From positions 5,999 to 39,975 of IMG/VR virus record IMGVR_UViG_3300010233_000085: a DNA stretch of 33,977 nt; one strand, given 5' to 3'. Shown here one piece after another: positions 377 to 15,029 of this stretch. This stretch comes from a virus. Position 1 is the first letter of the stretch. Each line of letters starts with the position of its first letter. Below the pieces are notes generated by a model. It was not told the origin of the DNA. It did not search any database and saw nothing but the letters and a program-made list of their open reading frames with translations. A program made the translations under genes and the position numbers.

Positions 377-407
377 TCCATCCCGTTTGCACCAAAACAA
401 GGCCAAG

Positions 408-1064
408 TTACTTCTCCGTCGATGCTATTTCAGACAGTTGGTTCATATATGCTTGCTTGATTTCCTCGAAAGCCTCTGGCGATTTGCGTTTCAGCCTGTC
501 CAGATTGCTCCCAGACTTTGGCCTGTCGAAAGCCTCTGTCTGTCCCTGAGCGTCGAGCCAGCCATATAGTTCTGGCATTCGCTTAGCGCCCATGATTGTG
601 ATTTTATGCTTGGCTATCCAGTTTTTCACACCGTCGATAACATCTTGATCGTCTTGAGCGGGAAGAGGCTGGGATAAAGGCTTGGCGCTGGCAGCGTTTC
701 CATCATCATCTTCGTCAGCCACTACCCCAAGCATCGCTGCTATCGAATATCGACGCGCATATGTGAGAGCAGAGCCATAGCCCTGGGGATCGGGCTTGGA
801 AGGCTTCAGAGGATATTTGCTGGTCAGAAACTCACCACTGTCATGCAGAAGAGTGGTTTCCAGATAGATATTGTCTCCCTCGTATTGCGGAGATTGAATT
901 ATTCCGAAGCCATGCTTTGCCATTGGCGCGCGCACCGCTTCCCAAACTGCCGATAGATCAGCATATTTCGAGCGGAAGTGTGGGTTGGTCGCGTCCTTGA
1001 GAGCTGGCTTGATTTCGCCTTGGAGCTTGGCGAAGGCCGTGGCGAACTTAGTCGTGATAGGCAT
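408..1064 (-). CDS. erf: ERF family single-strand DNA annealing protein
   Basis: The product is a 218-residue recombinase of the ERF superfamily, which anneals complementary single strands during phage recombination and genome circularisation. Residues 1-125 form the ERF core: a FRSKYADLSAVWEAVR block near 30-45 and the hallmark GYGSALTYARRYSIAAMLG near 96-113, followed by an acidic DEDDDGN at 118-123. The C-terminal part (about 125-218) is variable, as usual in this family. The ATG at 1064 overlaps the upstream stop by one base (TAATG) and is preceded by AAGGAGA. It is the fifth gene of the leftward operon. No companion exonuclease is visible in the window, so it may work with a nuclease encoded outside. 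Confidence 0.93.
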   Translation of the reverse strand: MPITTKFATAFAKLQGEIKPALKDATNPHFRSKYADLSAVWEAVRAPMAKHGFGIIQSPQYEGDNIYLETTLLHDSGEFLTSKYPLKPSKPDPQGYGSALTYARRYSIAAMLGVVADEDDDGNAASAKPLSQPLPAQDDQDVIDGVKNWIAKHKITIMGAKRMPELYGWLDAQGQTEAFDRPKSGSNLDRLKRKSPEAFEEIKQAYMNQLSEIASTEK

Positions 1065-1222
1065 TAGTTGCTTCTCCTTGCGGCTTCGTAGCGTTCTTTC
1101 GCCTGTTCTGCTTCGATAAACAGTATTTCTAAACAGCAGTCGCAGACTCGTTCATTCGGCGCAGCATAAACGTCAAAGGCATCGCCACATATCTTGCAAT
1201 ATGTTATTGGTTCCCAGCCCAT
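1064..1222 (-). CDS. Small zinc-ribbon-like protein, 52 aa
   Basis: This is a short cysteine-rich protein with a CKIC pair at residues 9-12 and a CDCC cluster at about 28-31, spaced like a four-cysteine zinc ribbon, followed by a charged helix rich in E, A and R. A longer reading from 1300 is possible, but the ATG at 1222 overlaps the stop of the preceding 57-aa gene (TGATG) and leaves that gene its own frame, so I chose the short form. Its stop overlaps the ERF start by one base. The metal-binding role is inferred from the cysteine spacing. Proteins like this often bind nucleic acid or a protein partner, but no specific function can be given. Confidence 0.7.
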   Translation of the reverse strand: MGWEPITYCKICGDAFDVYAAPNERVCDCCLEILFIEAEQAKERYEAARRSN

Positions 1223-1395
1223 CAGAGAAAACTTGCTGCTGTGTATAGAACCGCAAACACTGAGGCGATGACCAAAGCTATCCCGATCATATATTCCCAT
1301 GCTCCCTGGATCGGCCTGCTGCGTTCCAGATCGCGCCAGCGTGCGTCACTACGGACGCGCTCGACGCAGAAATCCTTGCGATCATATGGCCTCAT
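1222..1395 (-). CDS. Small membrane protein, 57 aa
   Basis: A basic, soluble N-terminal half (MRPYDRKDFCVERVRSD, then RWRDLERSR) is followed by one hydrophobic helix, MIGIALVIASVFAVLYTAA, at about residues 36-54, ending LYTAASFL. The helix and the charged segment before it suggest a single-pass inner-membrane protein with a cytoplasmic N-terminus. The start overlaps the upstream stop by ATGA and the stop overlaps the next start by TGATG, so it fits exactly into the chain of coupled genes. That fit is the main reason to believe in so short a gene. It is partly hidden by a longer frame read from 1300. Function is unknown. Confidence 0.68.
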   Translation of the reverse strand: MRPYDRKDFCVERVRSDARWRDLERSRPIQGAWEYMIGIALVIASVFAVLYTAASFL

Positions 1396-1616
1396 TTGCA
1401 GTATGATACCTCCGCGCTATCGAACTTCAGAACGAGCTTGCGAAACTCACGCCGAATGTCGGGGCAGATCGCTTCACAAAATATTGAGTGCTTGTCACAC
1501 CCCATGTATATGAGTGTACCGGCGATGCCGTACATCTTCGCGCTTGCTGGCCAGATCTTCAACACAGCGTTGAGTATGGCCTGGCGCACAAGAAAATCTC
1601 TGCTGGGCAATGTCAT
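1392..1616 (-). CDS. Hypothetical early protein, 74 aa
   Basis: I do not recognise this protein. It reads MTLPSRDFLVRQAILNAV at the start and contains a hydrophobic stretch near KMYGIAGTLIYMG and three cysteines (CDK, FCEAIC), then a basic region ending SYCK. The ATG at 1616 has GGGA seven bases upstream and overlaps the preceding stop by ATGA; a TTG six bases earlier in the same frame is less likely. Its stop overlaps the next start by ATGA as well. The third place in the leftward operon and the perfect junctions support it as a real coding gene. Confidence 0.6.
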   Translation of the reverse strand: MTLPSRDFLVRQAILNAVLKIWPASAKMYGIAGTLIYMGCDKHSIFCEAICPDIRREFRKLVLKFDSAEVSYCK

Positions 1617-1798
1617 TTCCAAATCCCTTTATTCGCTGTCGGCAGCCGATCAACAATCTTATCCATGACGGCTACTAGATCGCCGGGATTGCGGCTGGGA
1701 CGGCGATAGTGTTTCCATTTCTGGACGGATGGTTCACGGCCGAACGGATCGTCTGCGTCCCATTCATCACGTGGAAAGTGGCCATAGCTGTTGCTCAT
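1613..1798 (-). CDS. Hypothetical early protein, 61 aa (first gene of leftward operon)
   Basis: From the ATG at 1798 the product is 61 residues beginning MSNSYGHFPRDEWDADDPFG, with an acidic N-terminal third, a basic middle (KWKHYRRPSRNPG) and a C-terminal helix-forming stretch LVAVMDKIVDRLP. A longer frame from 1882 exists, but its extra residues would run through the divergent control region. The ribosome-binding site is poor, so translation may be nearly leaderless from the predicted leftward promoter. The ATGA junction with the next gene supports the frame. Function is unknown. Confidence 0.55.
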   Translation of the reverse strand: MSNSYGHFPRDEWDADDPFGREPSVQKWKHYRRPSRNPGDLVAVMDKIVDRLPTANKGIWK

Positions 1799-1875
1799 GG
1801 GGGTAATGTAAGACGCTTGGTAAAGTCCGGTCAAGTGGCTTGACGGATTTATTTTCGTGTGGCACATATCGGAAC
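1799..1875. promoter_or_regulatory. Divergent early promoter/operator region
   Basis: This is the only intergenic space between the leftward and rightward early operons. It contains TTGACG at 1840-1845 facing right and TTGACC at 1834-1829 facing left. The two -35-like boxes overlap a palindrome, TCAAG-TGG-CTTGA, at 1831-1843. Weak -10-like elements lie 17-18 bp away on each side (CATATC near 1865 rightward, TACATT at 1810-1805 leftward). One protein bound at the palindrome would cover both -35 boxes. The match to consensus is seen; promoter activity is inferred. Confidence 0.5.
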
Positions 1876-2076
1876 ATGACAAAGATCATCGATGCGCGCC
1901 CAAAGCAAACCATGACTGGGGCTTTTGAGGCTATGAAGGTCCGGGGGCAATTATATTTCAAAGGCGCGAAGCCAACGTCCATCAAGTCGATGGCCTACGA
2001 TTTAGGCAAACGGTGGGGGCGAACTTACACGACGCGCAAGGAAAACGGCGGCGTCATGGTCTGGAGGGAAAAGTGA
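1876..2076 (+). CDS. Hypothetical early protein, 66 aa (first gene of rightward operon)
   Basis: The protein starts MTKIIDARPKQTMTGAF and ends in a basic segment, KRWGRTYTTRKENGG then VMVWREK. The middle reads KPTSIKSMAYDLGKRWGR, which could be a helix followed by a basic strand, as in small nucleic-acid-binding proteins, but I cannot assign a family. The ATG at 1876 follows the predicted promoter closely; an upstream TTG at 1840 lies inside the -35 box and is unlikely. Its stop overlaps the next start (GTGA). As the first gene after the divergent region it is a candidate early regulator by position only. Confidence 0.55.
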   Translation: MTKIIDARPKQTMTGAFEAMKVRGQLYFKGAKPTSIKSMAYDLGKRWGRTYTTRKENGGVMVWREK

Positions 2077-2393
2077 CTGGCGCTGGCATAAAGCGATCCA
2101 AGGCAGGGTATATTTATTTTGTTGATGCGCCCACTAGACACGATATCAAAATAGGCTGGTCGCGCAATCCACACAGCCGTTTCAAGGTTGTCCAGCAAGA
2201 GGCGTGTGTGAAGTTGCGCCTGCGAGGATATTTCGCAGCTCCCATCCAGCACGAAAAGGCTCTCCATAAATATCTGAATGACAGACGAATGTACGGTGAG
2301 TGGTTTGCCACAAACCAGCCTATGCACCGTTTGGTTAGAGAAATGATTGCTGAAAAACGGGTTCCGGCCTTTATCCTCGCAGAGACATGGTGA
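2073..2393 (+). CDS. T5orf172 / MUG113-type GIY-YIG-like protein
   Basis: This 106-residue protein carries the pattern of the T5orf172/MUG113 branch of the GIY-YIG superfamily: GYIYFVD at 12-18, IKIGWS at 25-30, basic residues R31 and R36, a central E61 in the QHEKALHKYL helix, and a GEWF motif at 75-78. In related domains the tyrosines, arginine and glutamate form a nuclease-like site, although many small phage members are uncharacterised. The GTG at 2073 has GGAGG six bases upstream and overlaps the previous stop by GTGA, so I prefer it to an earlier in-frame start at 2013. It fills the whole domain with no extra module, so it may be a regulator rather than a nuclease. Confidence 0.75.
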   Translation: MTGAGIKRSKAGYIYFVDAPTRHDIKIGWSRNPHSRFKVVQQEACVKLRLRGYFAAPIQHEKALHKYLNDRRMYGEWFATNQPMHRLVREMIAEKRVPAFILAETW

Positions 2394-2396
2394 CAA

Positions 2397-2549
2397 ATGG
2401 CACGCTGGTCATCAGACAGTAAATCCCGCGCTTCCAAGAAAGCCAAAGACCTTCATGCCAAACTCAAGGCTGAATTGGTCGCCAAGAAGCAGATCAAGCC
2501 CGAACAGGAAAATATTCCTAATAAACAGCCTTGGTATGTTGGCAACTGA
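2397..2549 (+). CDS. Small lysine-rich protein, 50 aa
   Basis: A 50-residue, strongly basic peptide, with SRASKKAKDLHAKLKAEL forming a likely amphipathic helix and a C-terminus NKQPWYVGN. It starts three bases after the previous stop and its own stop overlaps the GcrA-like start (TGATG), so it sits in frame between two confident genes. Charge and helix suggest nucleic-acid or protein binding, but no family is recognised. The region would otherwise be a 155-nt gap in a tightly packed operon, which supports it. Confidence 0.55.
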   Translation: MARWSSDSKSRASKKAKDLHAKLKAELVAKKQIKPEQENIPNKQPWYVGN

Positions 2550-2989
2550 TGCCTTGGCCACATGGAAAGTTCTGGGAAAACGGCGAGAAGCTAGCCCAAC
2601 TACGCGCTTTGGCCTCCGAAGGCATCTACACGGCGCAGGAACTAGCTGACAAACTTGGCTGCTCAAGGTCCTCGATAATCGGAAAAACGCATCGCGAGAA
2701 AATCCCCCTCATGTCTCTGAGCAATGCCTATATCGCTGCGCAGCCTAGGCGCATCGCATCGCGCGCAGCCAAGAAGGCTATGCTAGAGCCAAGACCAATC
2801 CCTCTAAGCCCCTCTTCTATCCCCTCCCGCAATCTGGACATGATGGAACTACGCGATGGCCTATGCCGGTATCCACGCGGAACCAATCCCCCATATTCGT
2901 TCTGTGGCTATCCTGTCGAAGCTGGTAAACCATATTGTTCCCAACATTGCGCGCTGGTGTTTCAGAAGCCAGTAGCGAGGATGCGGTGA
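2549..2989 (+). CDS. GcrA-like cell-cycle regulator
   Basis: This 146-residue protein matches the two conserved ends of GcrA. The N-terminal helix-turn-helix runs from about 9 to 52 (FWENGEKLAQLRALASEGIY, then AQELADKLGCSRSSIIGKTH). The C-terminal part has CRYPRG at 106-111, FCGYPVEAGKPYC at 118-130 and H133, corresponding to the CRWP...FCG...YC..H block of GcrA. The middle (55-100) is proline- and arginine-rich. In alphaproteobacteria GcrA binds sigma-70 and activates promoters with CcrM-methylated GANTC sites. A phage copy could redirect host cell-cycle transcription or act on phage promoters; that is inference. Normal host GcrA is about 170 residues, so this copy is slightly short. Confidence 0.8.
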   Translation: MPWPHGKFWENGEKLAQLRALASEGIYTAQELADKLGCSRSSIIGKTHREKIPLMSLSNAYIAAQPRRIASRAAKKAMLEPRPIPLSPSSIPSRNLDMMELRDGLCRYPRGTNPPYSFCGYPVEAGKPYCSQHCALVFQKPVARMR

Positions 2990-3135
2990 GGATAGGCGAC
3001 AAAATTCCGCGGCCTTGGATGCGTCCCTGTTGGCTGTGGGTAAGCGATATTGAAGGCTGGTGGTTATGCTGCGTTGCAAGGTCTGATAATTACAACCTAA
3101 TTTGGCGCGTCAAAGCCCCTTGGCCCTCCCCGTGA
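2986..3135 (+). CDS. Tryptophan-rich small protein, 49 aa
   Basis: A 49-residue peptide with seven tryptophans (RPWMRPCWLWVSDIEGWW among them) and basic ends. The GTG at 2986 overlaps the GcrA-like stop by GTGA with GAGGAT just upstream, and the gene's stop in turn overlaps the next GTG by GTGA. The double coupling supports it as real. The alternating aromatic and basic residues resemble a small beta-barrel or SH3-like fold, but I do not recognise a family. Confidence 0.5.
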   Translation: MRIGDKIPRPWMRPCWLWVSDIEGWWLCCVARSDNYNLIWRVKAPWPSP

Positions 3136-3470
3136 CTGTGGATAGATTTGGGAATAAAATCCTAGTCGCATGGGCCGATCACGAGCGCCTATGGTTGCGT
3201 GCAGCTATGGAGCTCCCACGCCGGGAACGGTTTGAAGCTTTTGCCGATATCGCCTCAATGTCTGGCCGTACTGTTGCCGCCGTCCAATCCAAAGCCTATG
3301 CGCTCCATTCGAGAGCGTTAGCCACATGGGCTGAATCCGCCACTGTGGTGGTCCCTGGCGAGAATTATCACCTGAAGGGTACTCAGCAAGCATGGCGGAT
3401 AAGCCAGCCTACTCGGGCCATGCTGATGGCTGGACGGGCGAGTTGCCGGAATCGAACTGAGGAGTTATAG
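3132..3470 (+). CDS. Myb/SANT-like DNA-binding protein
   Basis: The first half resembles a Myb/SANT or GcrA-like helix-turn-helix: WADHERLWLRAAMELPRRE at about 12-30, ERFEAFADIASMSGRT near 30-45, and VAAVQSKAYAL as the recognition helix at about 46-56. The tail is basic and less structured. The GTG at 3132 overlaps the previous stop. It follows the GcrA-like gene with one small gene between them, so two helix-turn-helix proteins sit close together in one operon. The last dozen codons look unusual, because on the opposite strand they read like a tRNA T-arm, so the true C-terminus is uncertain. Target and role are unknown. Confidence 0.55.
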   Translation: MTVDRFGNKILVAWADHERLWLRAAMELPRRERFEAFADIASMSGRTVAAVQSKAYALHSRALATWAESATVVVPGENYHLKGTQQAWRISQPTRAMLMAGRASCRNRTEEL

Positions 3471-3567
3471 TTACAGGGCCGGGACAGGTGCTCGCTACAC
3501 TTGCCCTAACCGCTCCATCGGCGGGCTTACCGGCCTACTTTTCTTGCCCATGGAAGGGGCAATTCAA

Positions 3568-4110
3568 ATGGCGCACCAGCGCAAGCCTATTAGCACCCGC
3601 ACTAGATTTAACACGTTCAAGCGCGACGGCTTTGTCTGCCAATATTGTGGCCGGCACCCTCCAGAAGTTGTCTTGGAGGTCGATCACATAAAGGCTGTTT
3701 CGCGCGGTGGCGGGGCCGAAGACTATAATCTCATCACATCTTGCTTTGACTGTAACCGAGGAAAGGCCGCCGGGACGCTGGAGGCTCACCCAGTTGATCT
3801 GTCGGAAAGGGCGGATCTCCTCAAAGAACGAATTGCCCAAGTCGCAGCATATGATCGTTTACTTAAGAAGCAAAAGTCCGCCCAACAAAATACGATAGAC
3901 GCCGTTTGTGCGATTTTTACAGAGAATTTTCCGGGATGGGCACTTAATTCCGGCGCAGCTCGGTCAATTCGTATTTTTCTCAAATCGCTTCCCCCGGATG
4001 AAATAGAAGATTCCATGCACTACGCCTGTTCTCGGGTCGGGCGGGATGCCGTTTTTAAATACTTTTGTGGCGTTTGTTGGCGGAAAATAAAACGGGATGG
4101 GGGCCAATGA
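3568..4110 (+). CDS. HNH endonuclease
   Basis: A 180-residue HNH nuclease. The compact domain covers residues 12-66, with zinc ligands C24/C27 and C59/C62, the catalytic pair D39-H40 in LEVDHIKAV, N54 in the EDYNL turn, and the closing CNRGK. The C-terminal 110 residues are helical and not recognised. The ATG at 3568 has GGAAGGGG eight bases upstream; upstream in-frame starts at 3544 and 3550 are less well placed. The gene overlaps the following DUF1376 gene by ATGA. HNH genes next to DUF1376 replication proteins are common in phages, and here the nuclease may aid replication or packaging rather than homing. Confidence 0.9.
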   Translation: MAHQRKPISTRTRFNTFKRDGFVCQYCGRHPPEVVLEVDHIKAVSRGGGAEDYNLITSCFDCNRGKAAGTLEAHPVDLSERADLLKERIAQVAAYDRLLKKQKSAQQNTIDAVCAIFTENFPGWALNSGAARSIRIFLKSLPPDEIEDSMHYACSRVGRDAVFKYFCGVCWRKIKRDGGQ

Positions 4111-4841
4111 GTCGGCCTTCATTTCAATTCTATCCAGCAGATTGGCGCAATAACGCCAAACTTAGGCGCTGCTCGGAGGCGGCGCGGGGCGCGTGGGTTG
4201 ATATTCTTTGTGTGCTGCACGATTCGGACGAATACGGGGTTGTTCGTTGGCCATTAGCCGATCTGACTAAGGCCGCCGGCGTGAAAGCAAAATCAATCGC
4301 TGAATTAGTAGAAAAGAGCGTTTTACAGGGCGCCGACGAGGGCCATCCTGGATACGGTTGGCGCCCATTTCACGCTGGAAAGTTTGGCGACGAAGTTAGG
4401 CTTGTGGATAACTTTGATGGTCCACTTTGGTATTCTTCTCGCTTAGTTCGCGATGAACATTTGAGACAGAACAAAGGGGCAAAAACCAGGTTTACAGCCG
4501 AAAACCAGCCACCAAGCCGCCGGGATGGTGAACGGCATGGTGACGGCTCTTCTACTTCTTCTCCATCTTCCCATAAGGAAGTAAGTAAGAATCTTTTAAA
4601 TGGGTTCGTTGTTGGGAAGAATGGGGATGGGGGAAGTGTCACCATCCTAGACCCGCAAGAGCGGCTTAATCGCTTCCAAGCCTGGTTGGCTAAGAGCCTA
4701 GGTCCTAGTGGCTGGGAAATGGTGATTGCTGCTGCGGACCCGAAAAACCCTGAGCACCGCGCAATGCTCACGCGGTGCAAAGAGCAGGCTAGGAAAATGG
4801 GCAAGGGCTGGCCGCGACAATGGGCCAACGGGGAGATTTAA
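4107..4841 (+). CDS. DUF1376 family replication-type protein
   Basis: The N-terminus matches the DUF1376 signature: FQFYPADWRNNAKLRRCS at 6-23, then AARGAWVDILCVLHDSDEYG at about 25-44, followed by a winged-helix-like region to about residue 110. The middle (about 135-175) is polar and low complexity, rich in S and G, and the C-terminus holds LNRFQAWLAKSLGP and basic, tryptophan-containing segments. DUF1376 proteins in phages resemble replication-initiation proteins and usually sit near helicase loaders; no such partner is visible here. The ATG at 4107 overlaps the HNH stop by ATGA and has a G-rich ribosome-binding site. The replication role is inferred from family context. Confidence 0.85.
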   Translation: MSRPSFQFYPADWRNNAKLRRCSEAARGAWVDILCVLHDSDEYGVVRWPLADLTKAAGVKAKSIAELVEKSVLQGADEGHPGYGWRPFHAGKFGDEVRLVDNFDGPLWYSSRLVRDEHLRQNKGAKTRFTAENQPPSRRDGERHGDGSSTSSPSSHKEVSKNLLNGFVVGKNGDGGSVTILDPQERLNRFQAWLAKSLGPSGWEMVIAAADPKNPEHRAMLTRCKEQARKMGKGWPRQWANGEI

Positions 4842-4842
4842 G

Positions 4843-4929
4843 ATGCAGAACGCATCCATGTGGGCTGTCTTTGCCGGCAATATTACGTTCTGGGCTTTGG
4901 TGATTATTGCGGCGCATTATTGGCTCTGA
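4843..4929 (+). CDS. Tiny membrane peptide, 28 aa
   Basis: A 28-residue peptide, MQNASMWAVFAGNITFWALV plus IIAAHYWL, that is almost one hydrophobic helix from about residue 7 to 24. The ATG lies one base after the DUF1376 stop and has GGGGAG eight bases upstream, an unusually good site for so small a frame. It precedes two further genes with membrane segments. Single-helix peptides like this can be lysis or membrane-modulating factors, but the distance from the lysozyme gene argues against assigning a holin role. Confidence 0.5.
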   Translation: MQNASMWAVFAGNITFWALVIIAAHYWL

Positions 4930-4940
4930 AACCGCCTATT

Positions 4941-4972
4941 GCGCGTTCTCTGAGCATTTGAGGGAGAACCGC
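4941..4972 (+). promoter_or_regulatory. Hairpin covering the ribosome-binding site of the 49-aa membrane protein
   Basis: GTTCTC at 4945-4950 pairs with GAGAAC at 4964-4969, and GCG at 4941-4943 pairs with CGC at 4970-4972, with one bulged C. The GGGAG ribosome-binding site at 4962-4966 lies in the loop edge and right arm, and the start codon follows at 4974. The pairing would limit access of ribosomes unless upstream translation opens it. The structure is seen; the control role is inferred. Confidence 0.4.
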
Positions 4973-4973
4973 A

Positions 4974-5123
4974 ATGCTCAGTTTGATCCTATTGATTGCC
5001 GCTTTCATTCTATTCGTCTTGGCCACTTTGGGGGTGCCCGCGCCTCCGAGATTCAATCTCATGGCCGGCGGTTTGGCTTGCTGGGTTTTGTCGCTGATTA
5101 TTGTTGGGCACCCGCTCACCTGA
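4974..5123 (+). CDS. Small two-helix membrane protein, 49 aa
   Basis: Two hydrophobic helices are visible: LSLILLIAAFILFVLATLGV at 2-21 and LMAGGLACWVLSLIIVG at about 29-45, joined by a short PAPPRFN turn. I recall similar 45-50 residue phage proteins of the form LLL.AF.LF.LA..GV followed by GLA.WVLSLL; they have no known function. The ATG at 4974 is set behind GGGAG within a small hairpin. The topology is hairpin-like with both ends on the same side. A holin role is possible from size and topology alone but is not supported by position. Confidence 0.6.
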   Translation: MLSLILLIAAFILFVLATLGVPAPPRFNLMAGGLACWVLSLIIVGHPLT

Positions 5124-5159
5124 CTTGATTTTGTAACTTTCCGAGAGCAATCATAGCTA

Positions 5160-5429
5160 ATGGATTTCGCCGTGGGCATTCTGTTCGGGCTGCTGACGGC
5201 CGCACTAGCCGTGATCACAATGGCCCTTTTCACCATCCACAAGGACATCCACAAAATGGCAATTGCAGTTTCCGATCTCCTCACTCAGGTAGCGACGATC
5301 TCAACGGACGTTGATGCTCTCGTTGCCCGTTCCGTCCCCACTCCGCCGGTTGATTTGCAGCCTGTTGCGGATGCGCTGACGGCCTTGGACGCGAAGGTCA
5401 CCGCCGCTAACCCGGCGCCCGCTCCGTAA
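5160..5429 (+). CDS. Membrane-anchored helical protein, 89 aa
   Basis: One N-terminal hydrophobic helix at about 3-25 (FAVGILFGLLTAALAVITMA) is followed by a helical segment HKDIHKMAIAVSDLLTQVAT with heptad-like spacing and a proline/alanine-rich tail (PTPPVDLQPV...NPAPAP). This arrangement suits a protein anchored in the inner membrane with a coiled-coil domain outside or inside. The start at 5160 has only a weak GAGAG upstream, and the stop overlaps the next ATG (TAATG). No family is recognised. Confidence 0.6.
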   Translation: MDFAVGILFGLLTAALAVITMALFTIHKDIHKMAIAVSDLLTQVATISTDVDALVARSVPTPPVDLQPVADALTALDAKVTAANPAPAP

Positions 5430-5590
5430 TGGACTGGCATCTCAGATTTACATTCCGAGGCAAGCCAGACTGCTCCACGGGCAAATTGATCTACGGCCTG
5501 TGCATGAGTAGGAAGGTTGGAGAAGCCCGCCAGTGGCGACGGCTGTCTCTCTCAGAGCAGGATGATTATTTGTCAGTTGAGGCTTGGTGA
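5429..5590 (+). CDS. Hypothetical protein, 53 aa
   Basis: A 53-residue product beginning MDWHLRFTFRGKPDCSTGKL, with two further conserved-looking elements, YGLCMSRKVG and RQWRRLSLSEQDDYL. The start overlaps the previous stop (TAATG) and the stop overlaps the next start (TGATG). The mix of basic and aromatic residues is typical of small soluble phage proteins. I cannot assign a function. Confidence 0.5.
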   Translation: MDWHLRFTFRGKPDCSTGKLIYGLCMSRKVGEARQWRRLSLSEQDDYLSVEAW

Positions 5591-5919
5591 TGGAATATCT
5601 GGCGCAAATCCAAGAAATTGACCGCTCCGGCGTTTTTCGCGCAGAGGGTCTTAACTTCGGCCACGGTGTCCAGAGCCGCGATCCCGAACATCAGCTTTGC
5701 CACCTGATGGTTTCAACGGGCTTAGAGGACGGTCCGATTAAGTTCTTCCGGGCCGGCCAACACGCTTTGACCATCGCTTCAGTCCACCGGGCCGCGAAAT
5801 ACCGTCTCCCGGCCGAATGCTTCCCAGCCAAGGTCAAACGTTCAGAGCCTATGTCTGATGACGCCAAGTCAAAACTCGCCGCCAGGAAGTCGGCCGCGCG
5901 AGCGAATACGGAGGGATAA
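5590..5919 (+). CDS. Hypothetical protein, 109 aa
   Basis: The product starts MEYLAQIQEIDRSGVFRAEG and has a central alternating hydrophobic pattern (CHLMVSTGLEDGPIKFFRAG) suggesting beta strands, then a helix and a basic, alanine/lysine-rich tail (KSKLAARKSAARAN). I do not recognise it. The ATG at 5590 overlaps the previous stop by TGATG. An in-frame TTG at 5584 is an alternative start but has no better ribosome-binding site. Confidence 0.55.
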   Translation: MEYLAQIQEIDRSGVFRAEGLNFGHGVQSRDPEHQLCHLMVSTGLEDGPIKFFRAGQHALTIASVHRAAKYRLPAECFPAKVKRSEPMSDDAKSKLAARKSAARANTEG

Positions 5920-6111
5920 TTGCAATCCATCCTTCCCAAGCAATGGCTTTCCCCAGCAGCACAAACTGTTCAAGAGCTTCTGCTCAAGATGCAGGAGTGT
6001 GTTAAGGACGAGAGCCAGGCCAAGGCTTGGGATCTGTCGTGTGATATCCTAACCCAGGTGATGGTAGCGAGTCCGCCGGATATTCCGCAGTTGGTGCGCA
6101 GACATGGTTAA
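5920..6111 (+). CDS. Hypothetical helical protein, 63 aa
   Basis: From a TTG at 5920, six bases after GGAGG and directly after the previous stop, the frame gives a 63-residue protein that is mostly helical (AAQTVQELLLKMQECVKDES, AKAWDLSCDILTQVM). It overlaps the next gene by eight bases. The strong ribosome-binding site is the main reason to accept the TTG start. No family is recognised. Confidence 0.5.
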   Translation: MQSILPKQWLSPAAQTVQELLLKMQECVKDESQAKAWDLSCDILTQVMVASPPDIPQLVRRHG

Positions 6112-6340
6112 GACCCAACTTAGCGATATTATTGCTGAAACGCTCCGTTCGCGCGCGGGCGCACTATGCAAGAATGTGACGCAGACCAACGCGCTGTTAA
6201 ATCGGCTTATGGCGAACCAGCCGAAGCCACGGCCCTTAACGGCGGCAGAAAAGCGCGAACGTGCTCATCGGGAAGCTTTAGGCCGCAAATATCTGAAAAT
6301 GGCGCATGAGCTGGGCGTTTATGACGACGATGACTATTAA
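6104..6340 (+). CDS. Hypothetical helical protein, 78 aa
   Basis: A 78-residue, mostly helical protein: MVKTQLSDIIAETLRSRAGA at the N-terminus, a basic middle (AAEKRERAHREALGRKYLKM) and an acidic end DDDDY. The strong N-to-C charge gradient and predicted long helices suggest a coiled-coil or binding protein. It overlaps the previous gene by eight bases. I cannot name a family. Confidence 0.5.
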   Translation: MVKTQLSDIIAETLRSRAGALCKNVTQTNALLNRLMANQPKPRPLTAAEKRERAHREALGRKYLKMAHELGVYDDDDY

Positions 6341-6539
6341 TCCTTACATCCTCAAGGATTTTGCTGACGCTCTTGGCCTAAAACCCCGTTCCAAGCCCCT
6401 TACTTACCCACAAGCCAAAAAGGTAGTAGACAAGCTCTATAGGGCTCGGTGGACAAACAATGTTGGCTTGGCATTGCATATGCACAAAACCTCAATCCGA
6501 ACCAAGAGCGGCCGTCGAAATCGCCAATCAGGGCTTTGA
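6330..6539 (+). CDS. Possible small protein upstream of NusG-like gene, 69 aa
   Basis: From an ATG at 6330 the frame encodes 69 residues starting MTINPYILKDFADALGLKPR and ending in a basic stretch. It fills the otherwise empty 6341-6459 interval, but its last 80 bases overlap the NusG-like gene in another frame, and that part (after about residue 43) reads as basic, low-plausibility protein. It could be a real small gene whose 3' end overlaps the NusG-like gene, or chance. There is no clear ribosome-binding site. Confidence 0.33.
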   Translation: MTINPYILKDFADALGLKPRSKPLTYPQAKKVVDKLYRARWTNNVGLALHMHKTSIRTKSGRRNRQSGL

Positions 6540-6948
6540 AATTTGTCTCCCCCTCGACCGACGCCAACGCATAAAACGGGGCATGTTGATACAGGAAACA
6601 ACCCCTTTATTTCCAAGATACATCTTCGCCAGATTCGATAGAGAACAGGATGGTTGGCAGCCTATTCGCAATACAAGAGGCGTTAGCTATATCATCAGCA
6701 CTCCGGACAATCGTCCCATCCCAATCCATGATGAGATCATGACCGTAATCCGCGATTATAAGCCTCACGAGACGCCCCCACAGGCAAATCAAGAGTTCAA
6801 GGCCGGGGATAGGGTAAAGATAGCCGAAGGTGTTCTTGCCGGCCTGGAGGGCCTTTTCGTCGAAGACCAGAACAAGCGCGTCTATGCGCTGCTCGATGTA
6901 ATGGGCAAATCAATCAAAGTCCCCCTGAAATCTATAGTTGCGGCCTAA
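6460..6948 (+). CDS. NusG-like transcription elongation/antitermination protein
   Basis: A 162-residue NusG paralog. The NGN domain covers about 1-102: AWHCICTKPQSE at 3-14, GFEICLP at 25-31, TPLFPRYIFARFD at 48-60, and TRGVSYII at 72-79. The KOW domain covers about 112-160, with FKAGDRVKIAEGVLAGLEG at 113-131. NusG bridges RNA polymerase to its partners, while specialised paralogs (RfaH, LoaP) promote readthrough of chosen operons. The ATG at 6460 has GGTGGA upstream. It lies directly before a 136-nt hairpin-rich leader and the late genes, so antitermination of the late operon is a reasonable inference. Host NusG is near 175-190 residues, so the length is close to normal. Confidence 0.9.
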   Translation: MLAWHCICTKPQSEPRAAVEIANQGFEICLPLDRRQRIKRGMLIQETTPLFPRYIFARFDREQDGWQPIRNTRGVSYIISTPDNRPIPIHDEIMTVIRDYKPHETPPQANQEFKAGDRVKIAEGVLAGLEGLFVEDQNKRVYALLDVMGKSIKVPLKSIVAA

Positions 6949-7084
6949 ACGCATATCGGGTAATTTTGTTCCCGGCTGCGTTAGCCGGAAACCGCCCGAA
7001 ACCCATTAGGGTGAGGGTGCGGTAGCCGCCTAACTATTCCGGAAGTACCTTCCCGGCCAAAACCCTCAACCACAGGAGACTCCA
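6949..7084 (+). promoter_or_regulatory. Hairpin-rich leader of the late operon
   Basis: This 136-nt gap has no gene. It contains three GC-rich hairpins: CCGGCT/AGCCGG at 6972-6988 (five-base loop), GCGG/CCGC at 7019-7029 (three-base loop) and GGAAG/CTTCC at 7041-7053 (three-base loop), plus a good AGGAGA ribosome-binding site before 7085. None of the hairpins is followed by a T-tract, so they are not classic terminators. Because the NusG-like gene adjoins it, this leader may be where the antiterminator acts. No clear -35/-10 pair was found in it. Confidence 0.4.
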
Positions 7085-7666
7085 ATGGCCGGATGGCTAA
7101 GCAATGGCGTGCCCAATCTCAACCAAAGCACGGGCAATGAAACCTTCAATGTCGATACTGAGCTTGCGTCGGGAACGTCCCCTCAGATGGGGTCTATTCC
7201 CCTTCAGCAATTGGCCAATATGGTCAATTATTACAGCTCAACTCTTTCCAAGACCATGGCGGCGGGCACTACCTATGTGGCCAATTTAAATGTCGGATTC
7301 CCTGCAACTTTTACAGGCGTGTCCATTGCAGTTGGTAGCACGGGGGGAACCGATCTTTGGGAAGTTGGTCTATTCAATAATGCAGGAACTCTTCTGGCCA
7401 ATTCGGTCACGACTGGTACCACAGCGGGTACCGCGCTGACTTGGCAACAGATCGCCTTCACCGCGACCTACACACTTCTCATTCCCGGAACCTATTGGAT
7501 TGGGCTTCAAAGCAATGGGACGACAGCCAAGTTCCTGGCCCTCAATAGTCCAACCAATCCCACCTTTACGGGCTCGCGCACGGGTTCAGCCGGGACGATC
7601 ACATTTCCCACAACGGTTCCCACGACCTACACAGCGAATCTTGGCCCAATGGCCCTGCTCTACTAA
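7085..7666 (+). CDS. Probable virion protein, 193 aa
   Basis: First gene after the leader. The N-terminal part, with TGNETFNVDTELASGTSPQM at about 17-36 followed by PLQQLANMVNYY, matches a segment I recall at the start of several phage structural proteins. The rest is beta-rich, Thr/Gly-rich and has the low-charge composition of capsid decoration or tail proteins, ending YTANLGPMALLY. The ATG at 7085 has AGGAGA upstream. A decoration or head-fibre role is a guess from composition and from its location before the packaging genes. It has no signal peptide or membrane helix. Confidence 0.6.
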   Translation: MAGWLSNGVPNLNQSTGNETFNVDTELASGTSPQMGSIPLQQLANMVNYYSSTLSKTMAAGTTYVANLNVGFPATFTGVSIAVGSTGGTDLWEVGLFNNAGTLLANSVTTGTTAGTALTWQQIAFTATYTLLIPGTYWIGLQSNGTTAKFLALNSPTNPTFTGSRTGSAGTITFPTTVPTTYTANLGPMALLY

Positions 7667-7683
7667 GGCCTGTCAAACCAACT

Positions 7684-7716
7684 AGGCCGGCTATGAAAAT
7701 ATCCGGCCTCTTTTCT
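7684..7716 (+). terminator. Terminator-like hairpin
   Basis: AGGCCGG at 7684-7690 pairs perfectly with CCGGCCT at 7703-7709 around a 12-base loop, followed by CTTTTCT. It lies between two virion-type genes, so it may act as an attenuator lowering downstream expression rather than a full stop. The stem is clear; the T-tract is short. Confidence 0.5.
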
Positions 7717-7726
7717 GGAGAAATTT

Positions 7727-8026
7727 ATGACAGCCCCAAGTGCGGTTAGGCCTGCAACTGCCATCGCGGATCCTAATGACCCCACCAATACTCTAAGTCC
7801 TAGCTGGACGAATGCGGTAACAGTAGGGCTTACTCAGACCCAGGCCTTTTCGCCACCCCTCAAAGCCATCTATATTGGCACTAGCGGAAATCTAAAGGTC
7901 GATATGGTGGGAACTGGCACCGGAATAATTTTTCATGCCGTTACAAAAGGCACTTGGCTCGCCATTCGCATCGCCAAAGTTTATACCTCTGGCACAACTG
8001 CCGGCCTGCTCACTGGTGTTTATTAG
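7727..8026 (+). CDS. Spike-base-like virion protein, 99 aa
   Basis: A 99-residue beta-rich protein: FSPPLKAIYIGTSGNLKVDM at about 41-60, TGTGIIFHAVTKGTWLAIRI near 63-82 and a VYTSGTTAGLLTGVY end. This layout (aromatic-containing YIGTSGNLKV, then GT.L.IR...V...GTTA) is like the small spike base proteins of the RCAP_rcc01079 type found in alphaproteobacterial gene transfer agents and phages, as I remember them. The ATG at 7727 has GGAG seven bases upstream. In those systems the protein forms a small knob on the head. Here the location between a virion-type gene and the terminase is compatible with such a role. Confidence 0.55.
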   Translation: MTAPSAVRPATAIADPNDPTNTLSPSWTNAVTVGLTQTQAFSPPLKAIYIGTSGNLKVDMVGTGTGIIFHAVTKGTWLAIRIAKVYTSGTTAGLLTGVY

Positions 8027-8043
8027 CCCAAGGAACCCATTCC

Positions 8044-8226
8044 ATGAAACACGAAATGAAATCGGCCATGGCCCATCTGGCCTCACACCACAAAGGTCAT
8101 GAGGACCATAATCGCGCTCATGGCAATAAGGTGCATTTCTCGGGCGGTAAGCCCGGCAAAGGCAAGAATGAAACACCTGGTTCATCCAAAGAAGGCAAGA
8201 AGCTCACACGCGAGGAAGAGGACTGA
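8044..8226 (+). CDS. Small histidine/lysine-rich protein, 60 aa
   Basis: A 60-residue highly charged protein, rich in H and K (HLASHHKGHEDHNRAHGNKV) with a GGKPGKGKNETPGSS linker and an acidic end EEED. The composition suggests an unstructured or metal/nucleic-acid-interacting peptide. AAGGAA lies upstream and the stop overlaps the next ATG (TGATG). No family can be assigned; the placement among packaging genes suggests a head-associated role. Confidence 0.5.
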   Translation: MKHEMKSAMAHLASHHKGHEDHNRAHGNKVHFSGGKPGKGKNETPGSSKEGKKLTREEED

Positions 8227-8357
8227 TGCCTCTCGAGAAATCCAAATCCAAGAAAGCCTTCAAACACAATATCAAAGCCGAAGTGAGGGCTGGAAAGCCA
8301 GTTAAGCAAGCTGTCGCAATCGCTTATAGCGATAAGCGCCGAGCGAAGAAGAAATAG
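8226..8357 (+). CDS. Small basic phage protein, 43 aa
   Basis: This 43-residue basic protein contains KSKSKKAFKHNIKAEVRAGK followed by PVKQAVAIAYSDKRRAKKK. The block N-I-K-x-E-x-x-A-G-K-P-x-K-Q-A-V-A-I-A is one I recall in many short phage proteins, some near head genes, with no known function. Its start overlaps the previous stop by one base. Conservation of that block is the reason for believing in so short a gene. Confidence 0.65.
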   Translation: MPLEKSKSKKAFKHNIKAEVRAGKPVKQAVAIAYSDKRRAKKK

Positions 8358-8368
8358 CTTCGCGCGCC

Positions 8369-8629
8369 ATGCCAAAGGGACAAAGAGGCGTCCGACTGGA
8401 CCCAAGGGCCACAGAATATACGCGGACCAAAATCCAAACCACTCAGATTGTTAAGCGGCTGAATTCGTTAATAAACGGCGAAATTGAAATGGCCCCTCAC
8501 CATGTCACTGCCGCTCTTGGCCTTTTACGCAAAACCCTTCCCGATCTGAGCGCCACGGAACACGATGCAACAGACGGTCTTAAAGAAGCCCTCCAGGGCA
8601 TCACAGTCACGTTCGGGACTTCAGGTTGA
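8369..8629 (+). CDS. terS: Small terminase subunit
   Basis: An 86-residue protein directly before and overlapping the large terminase gene, as small subunits usually are. The central region, IVKRLNSLINGEIEMAPHHV at about 27-46 followed by TAALGLLRKTLPDLSATEH, matches a segment I remember from short alphaproteobacterial phage small terminases (QV.AA..LLRKTLPDLS). TerS binds the packaging site and stimulates TerL. At 86 residues it is much shorter than P22 gp3 (162 residues), so only part of the usual ring-forming core is present. The assignment depends mainly on context and this motif. Confidence 0.72.
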   Translation: MPKGQRGVRLDPRATEYTRTKIQTTQIVKRLNSLINGEIEMAPHHVTAALGLLRKTLPDLSATEHDATDGLKEALQGITVTFGTSG

Positions 8630-9884
8630 GGCGAAATTCCCGCCTAAACTAAAGCCTCTGTTCGAACCTAAACGCTACAAGGTTTTATATGGGGGCCGGG
8701 GTGGTGCGAAGTCGTGGGGCATAGCCCGCGCATTGCTTATTGAGGGTATACGCCAACCCCTTCGCATCCTCTGTGCCCGTGAAGTCCAAAACTCGATCCA
8801 AGACAGCGTTTATCAGCTTCTTAAGGACCAAATAGTAAGCCTCCACCTCGAGAGTTTCTACACTTTCACGCTGAGCGAAATACGCGGCCTTAATGGCACA
8901 CTCTTTGTATTTGCCGGCCTGAAGCACAACATAGGCTCAATCAGATCCAAAGAGGGCCTAGACCGTGTTTGGGTTGAGGAAGCTGATGGCGTATCGAATA
9001 GCTCGTGGGATGCGCTAATACCCACGATCCGCAAGGAAAACAGTGAGATCTGGATCAGCTTTAATCCTCAGCTTGATACCGATCCCACCTATAAGAGATT
9101 TGTCGCCTCCCCGCCCACCAATGCTTGGGTTGAAAAGATAGGATGGCAGGACAATCCTTGGTTCCCCGATGTTCTCAGGCAGGAAAAGGATGACCTCGAA
9201 GCTAGAGACACAGACGCATTCCTTAACGTCTGGGAAGGCCACTGTCGTCAGACTTTGGAGGGGGCTATCTATGCCCGAGAATTACGCCAGGCCACCGCAG
9301 AAAACAGAATCACCCGCGTTCCTTACGACAGTCTCAAACCCGTTGAAGTGTTCTGTGACCTCGGATGGGCAGATAGTACATCGCTGTGGTATGCGCAAAG
9401 AGTAGGCTTTGAATACAGGCTCTTAGAGAGCTACCAGAACTCGCAGCGGCCTTGGGATCATTACCTGAAGCATATTCAATCCAGGGGGTATGTCTTAGGC
9501 ACCATATGGCTTCCACACGACGCCAAGGCCAAGTCCTTAGCTACGGGTAGAACCATCCATGAAATCACGATCGCAGCGGGTTTCAGGGTTGAAATCACGC
9601 CTAATATCTCTGTTGAGGATGGGATTAATGCTCTCAGGACCCTCTTCGGGTCATGCTGGTTCGACGCTGATAAATGCGCGGACGGCCTCCAAGCTCTTAG
9701 ACGTTATCGATATGATGTCGACCCAGATACGAAACAGTTCTCTCGCAAGCCCGAGCACGATGAAAACTCTCATTATGCGGATGCAGCCAGGTATTTTGCC
9801 GTGGCTATGAGCGATGGCCGCAAGAAACAGCCCTCATTGCCACGTATGCCACAGCCTGGGGCTAGCGCGTGGATGGCAAGATGA
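8565..9884 (+). CDS. terL: Large terminase subunit (ATPase/nuclease)
   Basis: A 439-residue DNA-packaging motor of the Terminase_3 type. The ATPase domain has Walker A GGRGGAKS at 43-50, Walker B RVWVEEAD at 134-141 and a coupling motif SFNP at 165-168. The nuclease domain has three acidic positions in expected places: D265 and D270 in VFCDLGWAD, D319 in LPHDAKAK, and D406 in YADAARY near the end. It cleaves and translocates DNA into the prohead through the portal. The ATG at 8565 overlaps terS by 65 bases; no later in-frame start precedes the conserved region. A 20-codon frame and the portal gene follow directly. Confidence 0.97.
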   Translation: MQQTVLKKPSRASQSRSGLQVEAKFPPKLKPLFEPKRYKVLYGGRGGAKSWGIARALLIEGIRQPLRILCAREVQNSIQDSVYQLLKDQIVSLHLESFYTFTLSEIRGLNGTLFVFAGLKHNIGSIRSKEGLDRVWVEEADGVSNSSWDALIPTIRKENSEIWISFNPQLDTDPTYKRFVASPPTNAWVEKIGWQDNPWFPDVLRQEKDDLEARDTDAFLNVWEGHCRQTLEGAIYARELRQATAENRITRVPYDSLKPVEVFCDLGWADSTSLWYAQRVGFEYRLLESYQNSQRPWDHYLKHIQSRGYVLGTIWLPHDAKAKSLATGRTIHEITIAAGFRVEITPNISVEDGINALRTLFGSCWFDADKCADGLQALRRYRYDVDPDTKQFSRKPEHDENSHYADAARYFAVAMSDGRKKQPSLPRMPQPGASAWMAR

Positions 9885-9943
9885 GCAATTTTATGTCCCG
9901 CGCTCGCCGGACGAAAGTAAGAAAGTTGCGCATTGGCTACTGA
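9881..9943 (+). CDS. 20-residue basic leader-type ORF before portal
   Basis: From an ATG overlapping the terL stop by ATGA, this frame encodes MSNFMSRARRTKVRKLRIGY, twenty residues with eight basic ones. It overlaps the portal TTG start at 9933 by 11 bases, ending at 9943. It could be a coupling ORF that delivers ribosomes to the weak TTG start, or a chance frame. Confidence 0.35.
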   Translation: MSNFMSRARRTKVRKLRIGY

Positions 9944-12125
9944 AGACACCATCCATTCCAGCAAAGAAGATACCGGGGGCACGCCAGACGAACGGATCGT
10001 CCGTGAGGCTATGCGCCGGTTCAACATCTGTGCCACTGTGGAAAACGATTGCCGGCTTCGGTTCATCGAAGACGTTAAGTTCGCCAATGGTGACGCTGAC
10101 AATCTTTATCAATGGGATGAAACCACACGAAACGCGCGTGGATATGGGACGCTTGATGAACGCCCCTGCTTGACCATTAACAAAATCCGGCAGCATAATC
10201 TTAATATCATCAACGACGCCAAGCAGAACAAGCCGAGCGTCAAGGTGAAGCCGGTTGGGAATGGAGCTACCTATGATGCTGCTCAGGTATTTGAAGGTAT
10301 TGTCCGCCACATTGAGTATATCTCAAACGCGCAGGTTGCTTATGACACAGCAACCTCCTTCCAGGTTCAGGGCGGAATTGGCTGGCTTAGGCTTGTCACG
10401 GACTACCCAGACTACACTGATCAATCGTTTGACCAGGATATCTTTATACGGAGGGTCAAGGACCCGCTCACTGTTTACCTAGACCCAGATATCAAAGAAG
10501 CTGACGGGTCAGATGCCCGGTTTGGCTTTGTCTTTGATGACATGAGCAGGGAAGTCTTTGAGGACGTTTATCCCCGCCACAAGGATCTGGCTACCAAGTC
10601 ACCGTTGGATGTTTCCGGGGACTGGCTCAGGGACGATCAGGTCCGTGTTGCAGAGTATTATAGGGTGGTGGAATCCGACGATAAGCTCATTTCCTATATC
10701 GATCCCCAGACCGGCCAACGCCAATCCATCGCCAAATCCAAGATGGAAGATGAGCTTTTTAAATCCACAATAGACGATCCACAGACCAAAACCCGGAACA
10801 TCATAGATCGTAAGGTTGAGTGGTATCTCGTAGCTGGGGATAGGATTATCGAGCGCTCGACATGGGCAGGTCGCTACATTCCTTTGATCCGTGTCATAGG
10901 CGAAGAAACCAATATTAATGGCCAACTTGATCGCAAAGGTCATACCCGAGCGATGAAAGACCCGCAACGCCTAGCCAATTATTGGTATTCCGCAGCTACC
11001 GAGCATGTCGCCCTCCAATCAAAGACCCCTTATATTGGGCCTATGGAGGCATTCTCCAATCTGGAAACCTATTGGGACAGCGCAAACACGATCAATCACG
11101 CCTGGCTTCCCTTCAACGCCTACGACGACAAGGGCCAGAAGCTAGAAGCCCCCCAAAGGCAACCGCCGCCCATCATGGCCCAAGCTTATATCGAGGGGCT
11201 TAAGATGGCCTCTGACGAGATCATGCAAGTATCGGGGCAGTTTCAATCCGATATGGGCATGGAGGGGAACGAAAAGTCCGGGGTGGCTATCCAACAAAGG
11301 CAGCGCCAAGGCGATAACGCGACCTATCACTATATTGATAATCTCGCCATCGCGATCAGATTCATAGGCAAACAGCTCATCGATCTCATTCCCAAGATTT
11401 ACGATACCAAGCGCATTGTGAAGATCATGGCCGAGGATGGGGTTGAGCATGAGATTCAGGTCGACCCACAAGCCCAGCAGGCATATGTCCAGCAGCAACA
11501 GCAGACTGCGGATGTCATTCAATCGATATTCAACCCGAATGTGGGCAGGTATGATGTTGAGGCTGACATTGGCCCTGCATATGCTACGAGGCGCCAGGAA
11601 GCGTTCGAAGCCCTTACGGCCATCATGAAGGCCGATCCAGCCCTAATGCAGGTGGCCGGAGATCTATTGTTCAAGGCGGCCGACTTCCCGATGGCAAACG
11701 AGATTGCAGAGCGGCTTAAGCCCAAGCAGGGGCCGAGCCCGCAGCAGTTGGAAATGCAGAAGCAAATGCAATCTCAGGCTGAATTGCTTCAGAAGCTTTC
11801 CGGCGAGATTACACGCCTCAAGGCCGACAAATCGATTGAGGAACAGCAGAAAGACATTGACCGCTATAAGGCTATTACGGATCGGATGAAGGTCTTATTG
11901 CCCCTGGATCCGAGCCCCAAAGATCACATGAATATGATTCACGATTTGAATCTGGCCGAGCAGGCCAATAGTCATTCCATGATGCAGAATGAGCATCAGG
12001 CCATGTTGGATAGTCTCCAATCAGGCCAAGACCATTCCCAAGCCCTTGAGCAGGGCCAGCAAGGACACGCACAGGCCCTAGATCTTCAGGACCAAGCGCC
12101 ACAGCCCCAACAGGCAGCGGCATGA
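9933..12125 (+). CDS. Portal protein (P22 gp1-like)
   Basis: At 730 residues this matches P22-type portal proteins, which form the dodecameric channel at one head vertex. Recognisable segments include the N-terminal RRFNICATVENDCRLRFIED near 29-48 and LYQW near 58-61, RPCLTINKIRQHNLNIINDA at about 77-96, and the KPSVKVKPVG block near 101. The C-terminal third contains a Q-rich run (QAYVQQQQQ near 514), a coiled-coil at about 605-650 and a Gln/His-rich tail, consistent with a portal barrel. The start is a TTG at 9933; the next in-frame ATG would remove 27 residues. It overlaps the next gene by ATGA. Confidence 0.93.
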   Translation: MATEDTIHSSKEDTGGTPDERIVREAMRRFNICATVENDCRLRFIEDVKFANGDADNLYQWDETTRNARGYGTLDERPCLTINKIRQHNLNIINDAKQNKPSVKVKPVGNGATYDAAQVFEGIVRHIEYISNAQVAYDTATSFQVQGGIGWLRLVTDYPDYTDQSFDQDIFIRRVKDPLTVYLDPDIKEADGSDARFGFVFDDMSREVFEDVYPRHKDLATKSPLDVSGDWLRDDQVRVAEYYRVVESDDKLISYIDPQTGQRQSIAKSKMEDELFKSTIDDPQTKTRNIIDRKVEWYLVAGDRIIERSTWAGRYIPLIRVIGEETNINGQLDRKGHTRAMKDPQRLANYWYSAATEHVALQSKTPYIGPMEAFSNLETYWDSANTINHAWLPFNAYDDKGQKLEAPQRQPPPIMAQAYIEGLKMASDEIMQVSGQFQSDMGMEGNEKSGVAIQQRQRQGDNATYHYIDNLAIAIRFIGKQLIDLIPKIYDTKRIVKIMAEDGVEHEIQVDPQAQQAYVQQQQQTADVIQSIFNPNVGRYDVEADIGPAYATRRQEAFEALTAIMKADPALMQVAGDLLFKAADFPMANEIAERLKPKQGPSPQQLEMQKQMQSQAELLQKLSGEITRLKADKSIEEQQKDIDRYKAITDRMKVLLPLDPSPKDHMNMIHDLNLAEQANSHSMMQNEHQAMLDSLQSGQDHSQALEQGQQGHAQALDLQDQAPQPQQAAA

Positions 12126-12367
12126 CCACTTGGCCTGAAATTAATATATTAGATAATGAATCTCCTGGATTAGTAACACAGTTCCCCACCTGGAATGATC
12201 ATGGCTGGGATATACCGGAAAAGGTTGAAGTTCGGCGCTACATACTTAACGGTGTTGATATTATTGTATTTTGGGATGGGCACCGCCATGTTAGCGCCCC
12301 CTTAAAGGCTTTTCAGGAGTCGGAAGGATGGAAAGTTGCTCTGCGAAATTTAGGTATTTCTAAATGA
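12122..12367 (+). CDS. Hypothetical protein after portal, 81 aa
   Basis: An 81-residue protein with TWPEINILDNESPGLVTQFP early, then WDIPEKVEVRRYILNGVDII and VFWDGHRHVSAPLKAFQE. The alternating hydrophobic strands, with aromatic WNDHGW and FWDGHRH turns, suggest a small beta domain. It overlaps the portal stop by ATGA and the next ATG by four bases. The AT content appears somewhat higher than in its neighbours. I do not recognise it. Confidence 0.55.
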   Translation: MTTWPEINILDNESPGLVTQFPTWNDHGWDIPEKVEVRRYILNGVDIIVFWDGHRHVSAPLKAFQESEGWKVALRNLGISK

Positions 12368-12687
12368 GCCGGGTGCGCAAAGATGGGCGTATGGTCCATA
12401 AGACCATCAAGAAAGTGGCTCAGGAAATGGCCGGGTCCTACTATGAACATGCCGCTTCGCATAAAAAGCACGGTGACGAGTTCTATAAAGCGTTCCCTAG
12501 CCAAAAAGCTTTTATGAAATCGGAATGGCGCAAATTTGTGCAGACGGCCAAAGAGTGCATGACGCAAATGCTGGCGAATCCATTGACACCTGAGGCATAT
12601 AAGCAGGACATCTATCACGCGCTCTTGCTCGACGCGACACTGCCCTATTCCCAGCAAGAGACGCAGATCGTTAATATCCCTCATTAA
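12364..12687 (+). CDS. Hypothetical helical protein, 107 aa
   Basis: A 107-residue basic, mostly helical protein with HKTIKKVAQEMAGSYYEHAA at about 12-31, HKKHGDEFYKAFPSQKAFMK at 33-52, and a C-terminal LTPEAYKQDIYHALLLDATL near 74-93. I recall similar small proteins encoded between portal and scaffold genes in podoviruses, with no assigned function. The start overlaps the previous stop by ATGA. It may take part in head assembly, but that is only by position. Confidence 0.6.
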   Translation: MSRVRKDGRMVHKTIKKVAQEMAGSYYEHAASHKKHGDEFYKAFPSQKAFMKSEWRKFVQTAKECMTQMLANPLTPEAYKQDIYHALLLDATLPYSQQETQIVNIPH

Positions 12688-12729
12688 CGCTAGCGGCGGC
12701 GAACACCGTGTAAATTGTCAAGGTTAACC

Positions 12730-13527: not shown

Positions 13528-13710
13528 CCGTCTGGGCCGGTCAAAGCCCTGCATCGTGTAAGTGGTTTCACGATCCACAAACCCCGACTCTAAGCTGCGC
13601 GGCCTAGCCGCTCCGTTTTTCCTCTGCTTGGTCGGCAATGAGGTCTTAGGGCACTCCCTCAAAGCCCTTTCCCACATCGCCAAACTTCAACCCAGCCAAA
13701 GGAGAAAACC
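13528..13710 (+). promoter_or_regulatory. Leader between scaffold and coat genes
   Basis: The longest gap in the head region (183 nt) has no gene on either strand that I would accept. It holds a 6-bp hairpin, ATCGTG/CACGAT, at 13553-13574, a terminator-like hairpin at 13599-13620, two copies of TCAAAGCCCT (13540-13549 and 13659-13668), and AGGAG before the coat GTG. No convincing -35/-10 pair is visible. It probably sets the coat-to-scaffold ratio. Confidence 0.4.
13599..13620 (+). terminator. Terminator-like hairpin upstream of coat gene
   Basis: GCGGC at 13599-13603 and GCCGC at 13607-13611 form a 5-bp stem with a CTA loop, followed four bases later by TTTTT (13616-13620). The stem is short, so termination would be partial at best. 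Confidence 0.4.
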
Positions 13711-14964: not shown

Positions 14965-14980
14965 TTAAGTTTGATGTTTT

Positions 14981-15019: not shown

Positions 15020-15029
15020 GAGATATCAA

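Follow-up and report, generated by a model that had tools for sequence, protein, structure and literature searches.

Phages appear to have borrowed the RfaH–ops system, in which RfaH serves bacteria as an activator of silenced, horizontally acquired operons, for the control of their late genes, since the same pairing of an RfaH-type NusG paralog with an ops-like element recurs in unrelated phages. The sequence studied here (the window; 33,977 nt) covers positions 5,999-39,975 of the 39,975-base IMG/VR record IMGVR_UViG_3300010233_000085. We consider it probable (about 0.7) that in this phage RNA polymerase takes up an RfaH paralog while paused at an ops-like site of the late leader, and that the paralog keeps it processive through the late operon. 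For promoter use, pausing, binding, NusG exclusion and readthrough in the window phage, we infer the following course. Host RNA polymerase would leave the late promoter and pause at the ops-like core GCGGTAGC (7019-7026) of the non-template strand, presented right behind a nascent RNA hairpin. The phage paralog would then load onto the paused host enzyme, exclude host NusG, and suppress pausing and termination, both Rho-dependent and at a stem-loop at 7684-7716, whereby transcription would run through the long late operon. Underneath this course are a protein family and fold, an enriched ops core, a hairpin before the core, a leader element and a terminator-like stem, all of which are observed. 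The original prediction of processive antitermination of the late operon by a NusG paralog of the phage is supported by sequence analysis, in which the leader next to the gene proves conserved; action at the head of the late operon is the likeliest function of the paralog, presumably by antitermination.

The NusG paralog and the late gene series

A complete NGN-KOW protein followed by a leader of 136 nt (6949-7084) and then by a long late gene series had been predicted, and each part is present; the late genes are P22-like and include terminase, P22-like portal and P22-like coat genes.

6460-6948, + strand: RfaH-type NusG paralog (NGN and KOW), 162 aa; PF02357, phrog_6386, TIGR01955
7085-7666, + strand: first late gene, 193 aa, no known family, kept after the leader in relatives
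7684-7716, + strand: intrinsic-terminator-like stem-loop with a T-rich tail, between the first and second late genes
8565-9884, + strand: terminase large subunit (PF04466, 3e-38)
9933-12125, + strand: P22-like portal (PF16510, 9e-163)
13711-14964: P22-like coat (profile match)

The protein belongs to the NusG/Spt5 family, defined by an NGN and a C-terminal KOW domain, as judged from its match to Pfam NusG (PF02357, 9e-18) and from its AlphaFold2 model. It also matches PHROG 6386 (transcription antiterminator; 4e-19), and its best-scoring family is NCBIfam RfaH (TIGR01955; 2.7e-36), with 124.9 bits where the curated cut-off is 144.5; the LoaP model gives 49.6 bits, where its cut-off is 125. Sequence matches in the PDB are headed by E. 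coli RfaH (5e-14). The AlphaFold2 model, built from 38 sequences, has a pLDDT of 87 with a high-confidence NGN and a beta KOW, and contains no alpha-helical autoinhibited state; AlphaFold2 may show one state only. In Foldseek the model's best two matches are an integrative model of NusG with RpoB and a structure of the ops-paused complex with RfaH fully recruited (8phk), and the recruited NGN of 8pen superposes on it with a TMt of 0.88.

Substitutions of K10, R16, H20, T72 and R73 weaken ops recognition by E. coli RfaH (PMC2871177); four of these five contact residues are kept in the window protein, and H20, which contributes to the T6 pocket in E. coli, is replaced by E. RfaH autoinhibition requires E48, I93 and F130 (PMC7593976). 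Since E48 is T and I93 is M in the window protein and only F130 is kept, its autoinhibition is uncertain, and we class it on sequence as an RfaH-type NusG paralog, neither an RfaH equivalog nor LoaP-type.

Relatives of the protein came from terminase-based and alignment-based searches, a single-sequence protein scan of viral contigs having returned none. They share the gene order of the window and keep its leader. In each of the ten sequences read (the window and nine relatives) the first late gene ends ahead of a strong stem-loop, mostly of different sequence; five of these stem-loops (window, L002, L009, L208 and L209) have a T-run. Terminase, portal and coat would thus be placed behind a possible terminator or processing stem. 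The original prediction had named two hairpins as sites of readthrough. The one at 7684-7716 is present with its T-rich tail; that at 13599-13620 is a listed stem, and terminator-like matches over 1-16000 are at chance frequency (16 vs 16.1 in shuffled sequence).

A phage-encoded GcrA-like cell-cycle regulator (2531-2989; PF07750, 3e-16) and a lysozyme (33409-33930) whose closest model is the gene-transfer-agent endolysin BgtA point to an alphaproteobacterial host. The neighbouring ORFs 30381-31388 and 31731-32375 have very similar N-termini (ILPN.VNQF.DINGxPLVxGxVxFYEPGTLVP) and are probably a duplicated tail-fibre anchor. Two possible homing endonucleases are an endonuclease VII-type ORF just 3' of the coat gene (14985-15713) and, among the early genes, an HNH endonuclease (3544-4110).

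The ops-like core at viral and bacterial loci

Two features of the leader enter into the proposed loading.

6994-7018, + strand: hairpin ending directly before the ops-like core (comparative folding)
7019-7026, + strand: ops-like core GCGGTAGC, proposed RfaH loading and pause signal in non-template DNA (identity with E. coli ops)

The core matches E. coli ops, GGCGGTAGCGTG (PMC5995543), exactly over positions 2-9, and occurs once in the 39,975-base record, in the leader. The ops element expected in the leader of an RfaH target is thus represented by GCGGTAGC and its enrichment, with the flanking TG (ops positions 11-12) unmatched in the window outside the 8-mer; the relaxed ops consensus with two mismatches is at chance level in the window. 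In E. coli, the features of the ops DNA hairpin that RfaH recognises are its C3:G8 pair and its G4-A7 loop, with T6 flipped. As an identity of this kind in a single leader could be chance, only a comparative test over RfaH-type loci is informative.

RfaH-type relatives were gathered from viral and bacterial contigs by a conserved motif, and all 8-mers were counted in the 250 nt downstream of representatives below 80% identity (62 viral and 72 bacterial). The commonest 8-mer in both sets is GCGGTAGC, found at 17/62 viral and 35/72 bacterial loci; about 0.6 and 0.7 are expected from other positions of the same loci, and the opposite strand has none. Seven more viral loci carry the core within 150 nt upstream of the gene, which brings the viral total to 24/62 and leaves 38/62 viral RfaH-type genes with no adjacent exact copy. 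At L246, L250, L256, L261, L270, L274 and L276, the core lies about 20-70 nt before the nusG-like gene, an arrangement that suggests a regulator heading the very operon on which it acts.

The hairpin before the core is likewise common to both sets (mean z in viral loci -2.05, with +0.33 in the downstream control; in bacterial loci -2.24, with +0.47), and the median gap from hairpin to core is 1 nt in viral and 2 nt in bacterial loci. Many alphaproteobacterial copies consist of a complementary arm followed by TTCACCCGGACTGCGGTAGCRTG. At L331, L303, L315, L367 and about 30 other bacterial loci, mostly alphaproteobacterial, a hairpin-ACT-GCGGTAGC-RTG arrangement with a conserved TTCACCCGG arm stands 47-221 nt after the RfaH-type gene and is likely a linked ops/JUMPstart signal.

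The pairing extends across phage lineages. A tree of 132 proteins groups the window protein, with support of 100/98, in a clade of nine from phages and requires at least four changes of viral label, a number made unsure by long branches and unsettled bootstrap values. Among the ORFs downstream of the ops-bearing viral loci are terminases of four family groups:

phrog_38 terminase: L224, L277, L265, L268
phrog_15 terminase: L238, L256
phrog_2 terminase: L243, L244
phrog_9 terminase: L286

Two loci of the viral count, L232 and L258, precede sugar/LPS genes and were left out of the argument for late control. Among P22-like terminase relatives, 4/5 with the close paralog vs 5/44 without it carry the core no more than 2.6 kb before the terminase (p = 0.003, which is optimistic as the rows share ancestry). 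In the cultured Bradyrhizobium phage ppBjS10J-1, which has an RfaH-like gene, GCGGTAGC is not on that strand.

The leader and its conserved hairpin element

Folding of the leader (6949-7084) gives -52 kcal/mol against -42.3 in shuffles (z -2.57), and 4 of 200 shuffles are as stable. Three hairpins had been drawn in it; hairpins are indeed there, if not quite those three. A large one lies within 6980-7034 and a small one near 7041-7053, and pairing of 7053-7059 with 7086-7092 forms another around the Shine-Dalgarno sequence and start codon. Four features can be listed.

6937-6966 (approximate), + strand: possible weak promoter TTGCGG-17-TAATTT, corresponding in position to CTTGAC of relatives
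6974-7040, + strand: conserved element GGCTGC - hairpin - TATTCC, in nine distinct phages with invariant flanks
6980-6984/7030-7034, + strand: P1 closing stem of the element, same fold in 9/9 with covariation
7053-7092, + strand: hairpin whose loop contains the Shine-Dalgarno AGGAG (7074-7078) and whose 3' arm contains the start codon, from ten leader folds

Relatives with the leader were located by way of two genes, the terminase and the first late gene, and the nine phages with the element include the window. Between its flanks, each of the nine copies forms a single hairpin closed by the first and last inner base, a pair formed by 0-3.5% of shuffled interiors. In P1, 92.9% of cells are paired and three of the five pairs are changed on both sides across nine sequences; 29/500 shuffles reach this covariation score, which amounts to moderate support. 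The covariance model of the element finds no copy outside this phage group, Rfam gives no match to the leader (JUMPstart RNA RF01707 included), and a nucleotide search of the leader in the phage collection gave none. In six of the nine phages CTTGAC lies about 35 nt before GGCTGC, which suggests a transcript start at the element or close to it; at this position the window has TTGCGG, and under generic sigma-70 scoring the promoter in the window itself is not significant. The Shine-Dalgarno/start-codon hairpin (GGCCA/TGGCC stem), also found in relatives, may regulate translation of the first late gene. L007 and L008 have about 1.3 kb extra between the nusG-like gene and the element (L007:1139-2430), and the element remains joined to the first late gene.

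Several candidate copies were rejected. The broad element pattern in IMG/VR gave mostly chance matches, and tighter patterns gave L375, L378 and L380, chance matches with neither the paralog nor the neighbouring genes. Weak covariance-model matches in L201 (2118) and L354 were discarded after inspection; that in L241 was weak itself but pointed to a GCGGTAGC leader there.

A leader conserved in relatives that have the gene had been set as a test, and eight of the nine members of the protein's clade show it; the exception, L220, has neither the hairpin element nor GCGGTAGC. L002 and L208, two of the nine phages, keep the element and lack the exact core, and L209 carries the core about 30 nt before the element, not inside it. 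Judged from these exceptions, hairpin element and ops core can occur apart from each other, and the former may serve a separate function. We tentatively raise a two-part loading platform, not described before and on balance rather unlikely, in which an ops-like DNA core for the RfaH paralog would be joined in the close phage group by a new leader RNA element, GGCUGC-hairpin-UAUUCC, with its own recognition by the paralog, by polymerase or by some other factor. L209 has the two parts at separate places, and in most other close phages they overlap.

The original prediction favoured a LoaP-like mode. In the form considered here, the leader RNA hairpin (GGCUGC-P1-UAUUCC) would recruit the protein and GCGGTAGC would be only the 3' arm of that hairpin. 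LoaP requires a leader hairpin (PMC12691694), and the element with its invariant flanks and P1 covariation in nine phages, retained by L002 and L208 without the exact core, speaks for such loading. We nevertheless judge it improbable, as GCGGTAGC is invariant at differing registers to P1 and in many lineages accompanies RfaH-type genes whose hairpins are unrelated, and the RNA element was not found outside the clade by the covariance model. The signal that crosses lineages is the non-template ops core; neither the leader sequence nor its predicted fold has a C-G-closed UNCG loop, and the protein scores 49.6 bits as LoaP vs 124.9 as RfaH. In close relatives, which carry the RNA hairpin as a second element, leader RNA may contribute.

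The leader RNA could also work without a NusG paralog, directly on polymerase like HK022 put or as a translation-controlling leader, as a promoter-proximal structured RNA of about 65 nt and a separate hairpin with the start codon in its stem would allow. This is very improbable: the paralog gene is present in 8/8 distinct element-bearing phages whose contig spans the paralog locus (L207 and L206 fall outside this count, the contig being too short or the paralog absent within it), the covariance model finds no copy in terminase relatives without the paralog, and there is one hairpin, against the two stems of putRNA (PMC9378689). Least credence goes to a protein that acts mainly on host transcription, in competition with host NusG/Rho, with its adjacency to the leader incidental; the 38/62 viral genes without an adjacent exact core fit this, but the enrichment, strand bias and position of GCGGTAGC and its single copy in the record do not. 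Taken together, family and fold, residues, enrichment, hairpin, terminase diversity and the terminator-like stem make RfaH–ops loading the best reading.

Known systems and significance

The closest parallel is E. coli RfaH with ops/JUMPstart, likewise a 162-aa NGN-KOW paralog with the non-template core GCGGTAGC, a hairpin upstream of that core, as reported for JUMPstart (PMC2864571), and a long, horizontally acquired target operon. The window protein differs in being phage-encoded and adjoining its target, a phage late operon, in scoring below the equivalog cut-off and in not keeping H20 and E48; the flanks of the core differ from those of E. coli ops, and the window leader has an extra conserved RNA hairpin. 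LoaP of Bacillus is likewise a NusG paralog whose long operon is preceded by a structured leader RNA, but it binds a UNCG RNA hairpin, a loop not seen in the window leader, and its model scores far lower.

Lambda Q, Xp10 p7 and HK022 put resemble the proposed system in processive antitermination of phage operons from a promoter-proximal site, but use unrelated proteins or RNA alone (comparison drawn partly from PMC4513864 and PMC9378689). The two stem-loops of put RNA bind the beta' zinc-binding domain; the element here has one closing hairpin in 9/9 phages. None of these three systems is known to pair a NusG paralog with an ops element. The papers searched mention rfaH-like genes on prophages, and we found in them no account of phage late control by RfaH–ops.

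TaA, UpxY and plasmid tra NusG paralogs share with the window a regulator gene that adjoins a long operon, and their recruitment mode beside their targets has been called unknown (PMC7593976). The difference is that here, and at 35/72 bacterial loci, an ops core follows the gene, and that the phage target is virion genes. A core placed right after the gene offers a testable answer to the question of paralog recruitment in both bacteria and phages, and suggests that phages of several lineages use RfaH–ops, rather than Q- or N-type factors, to activate their virion genes.
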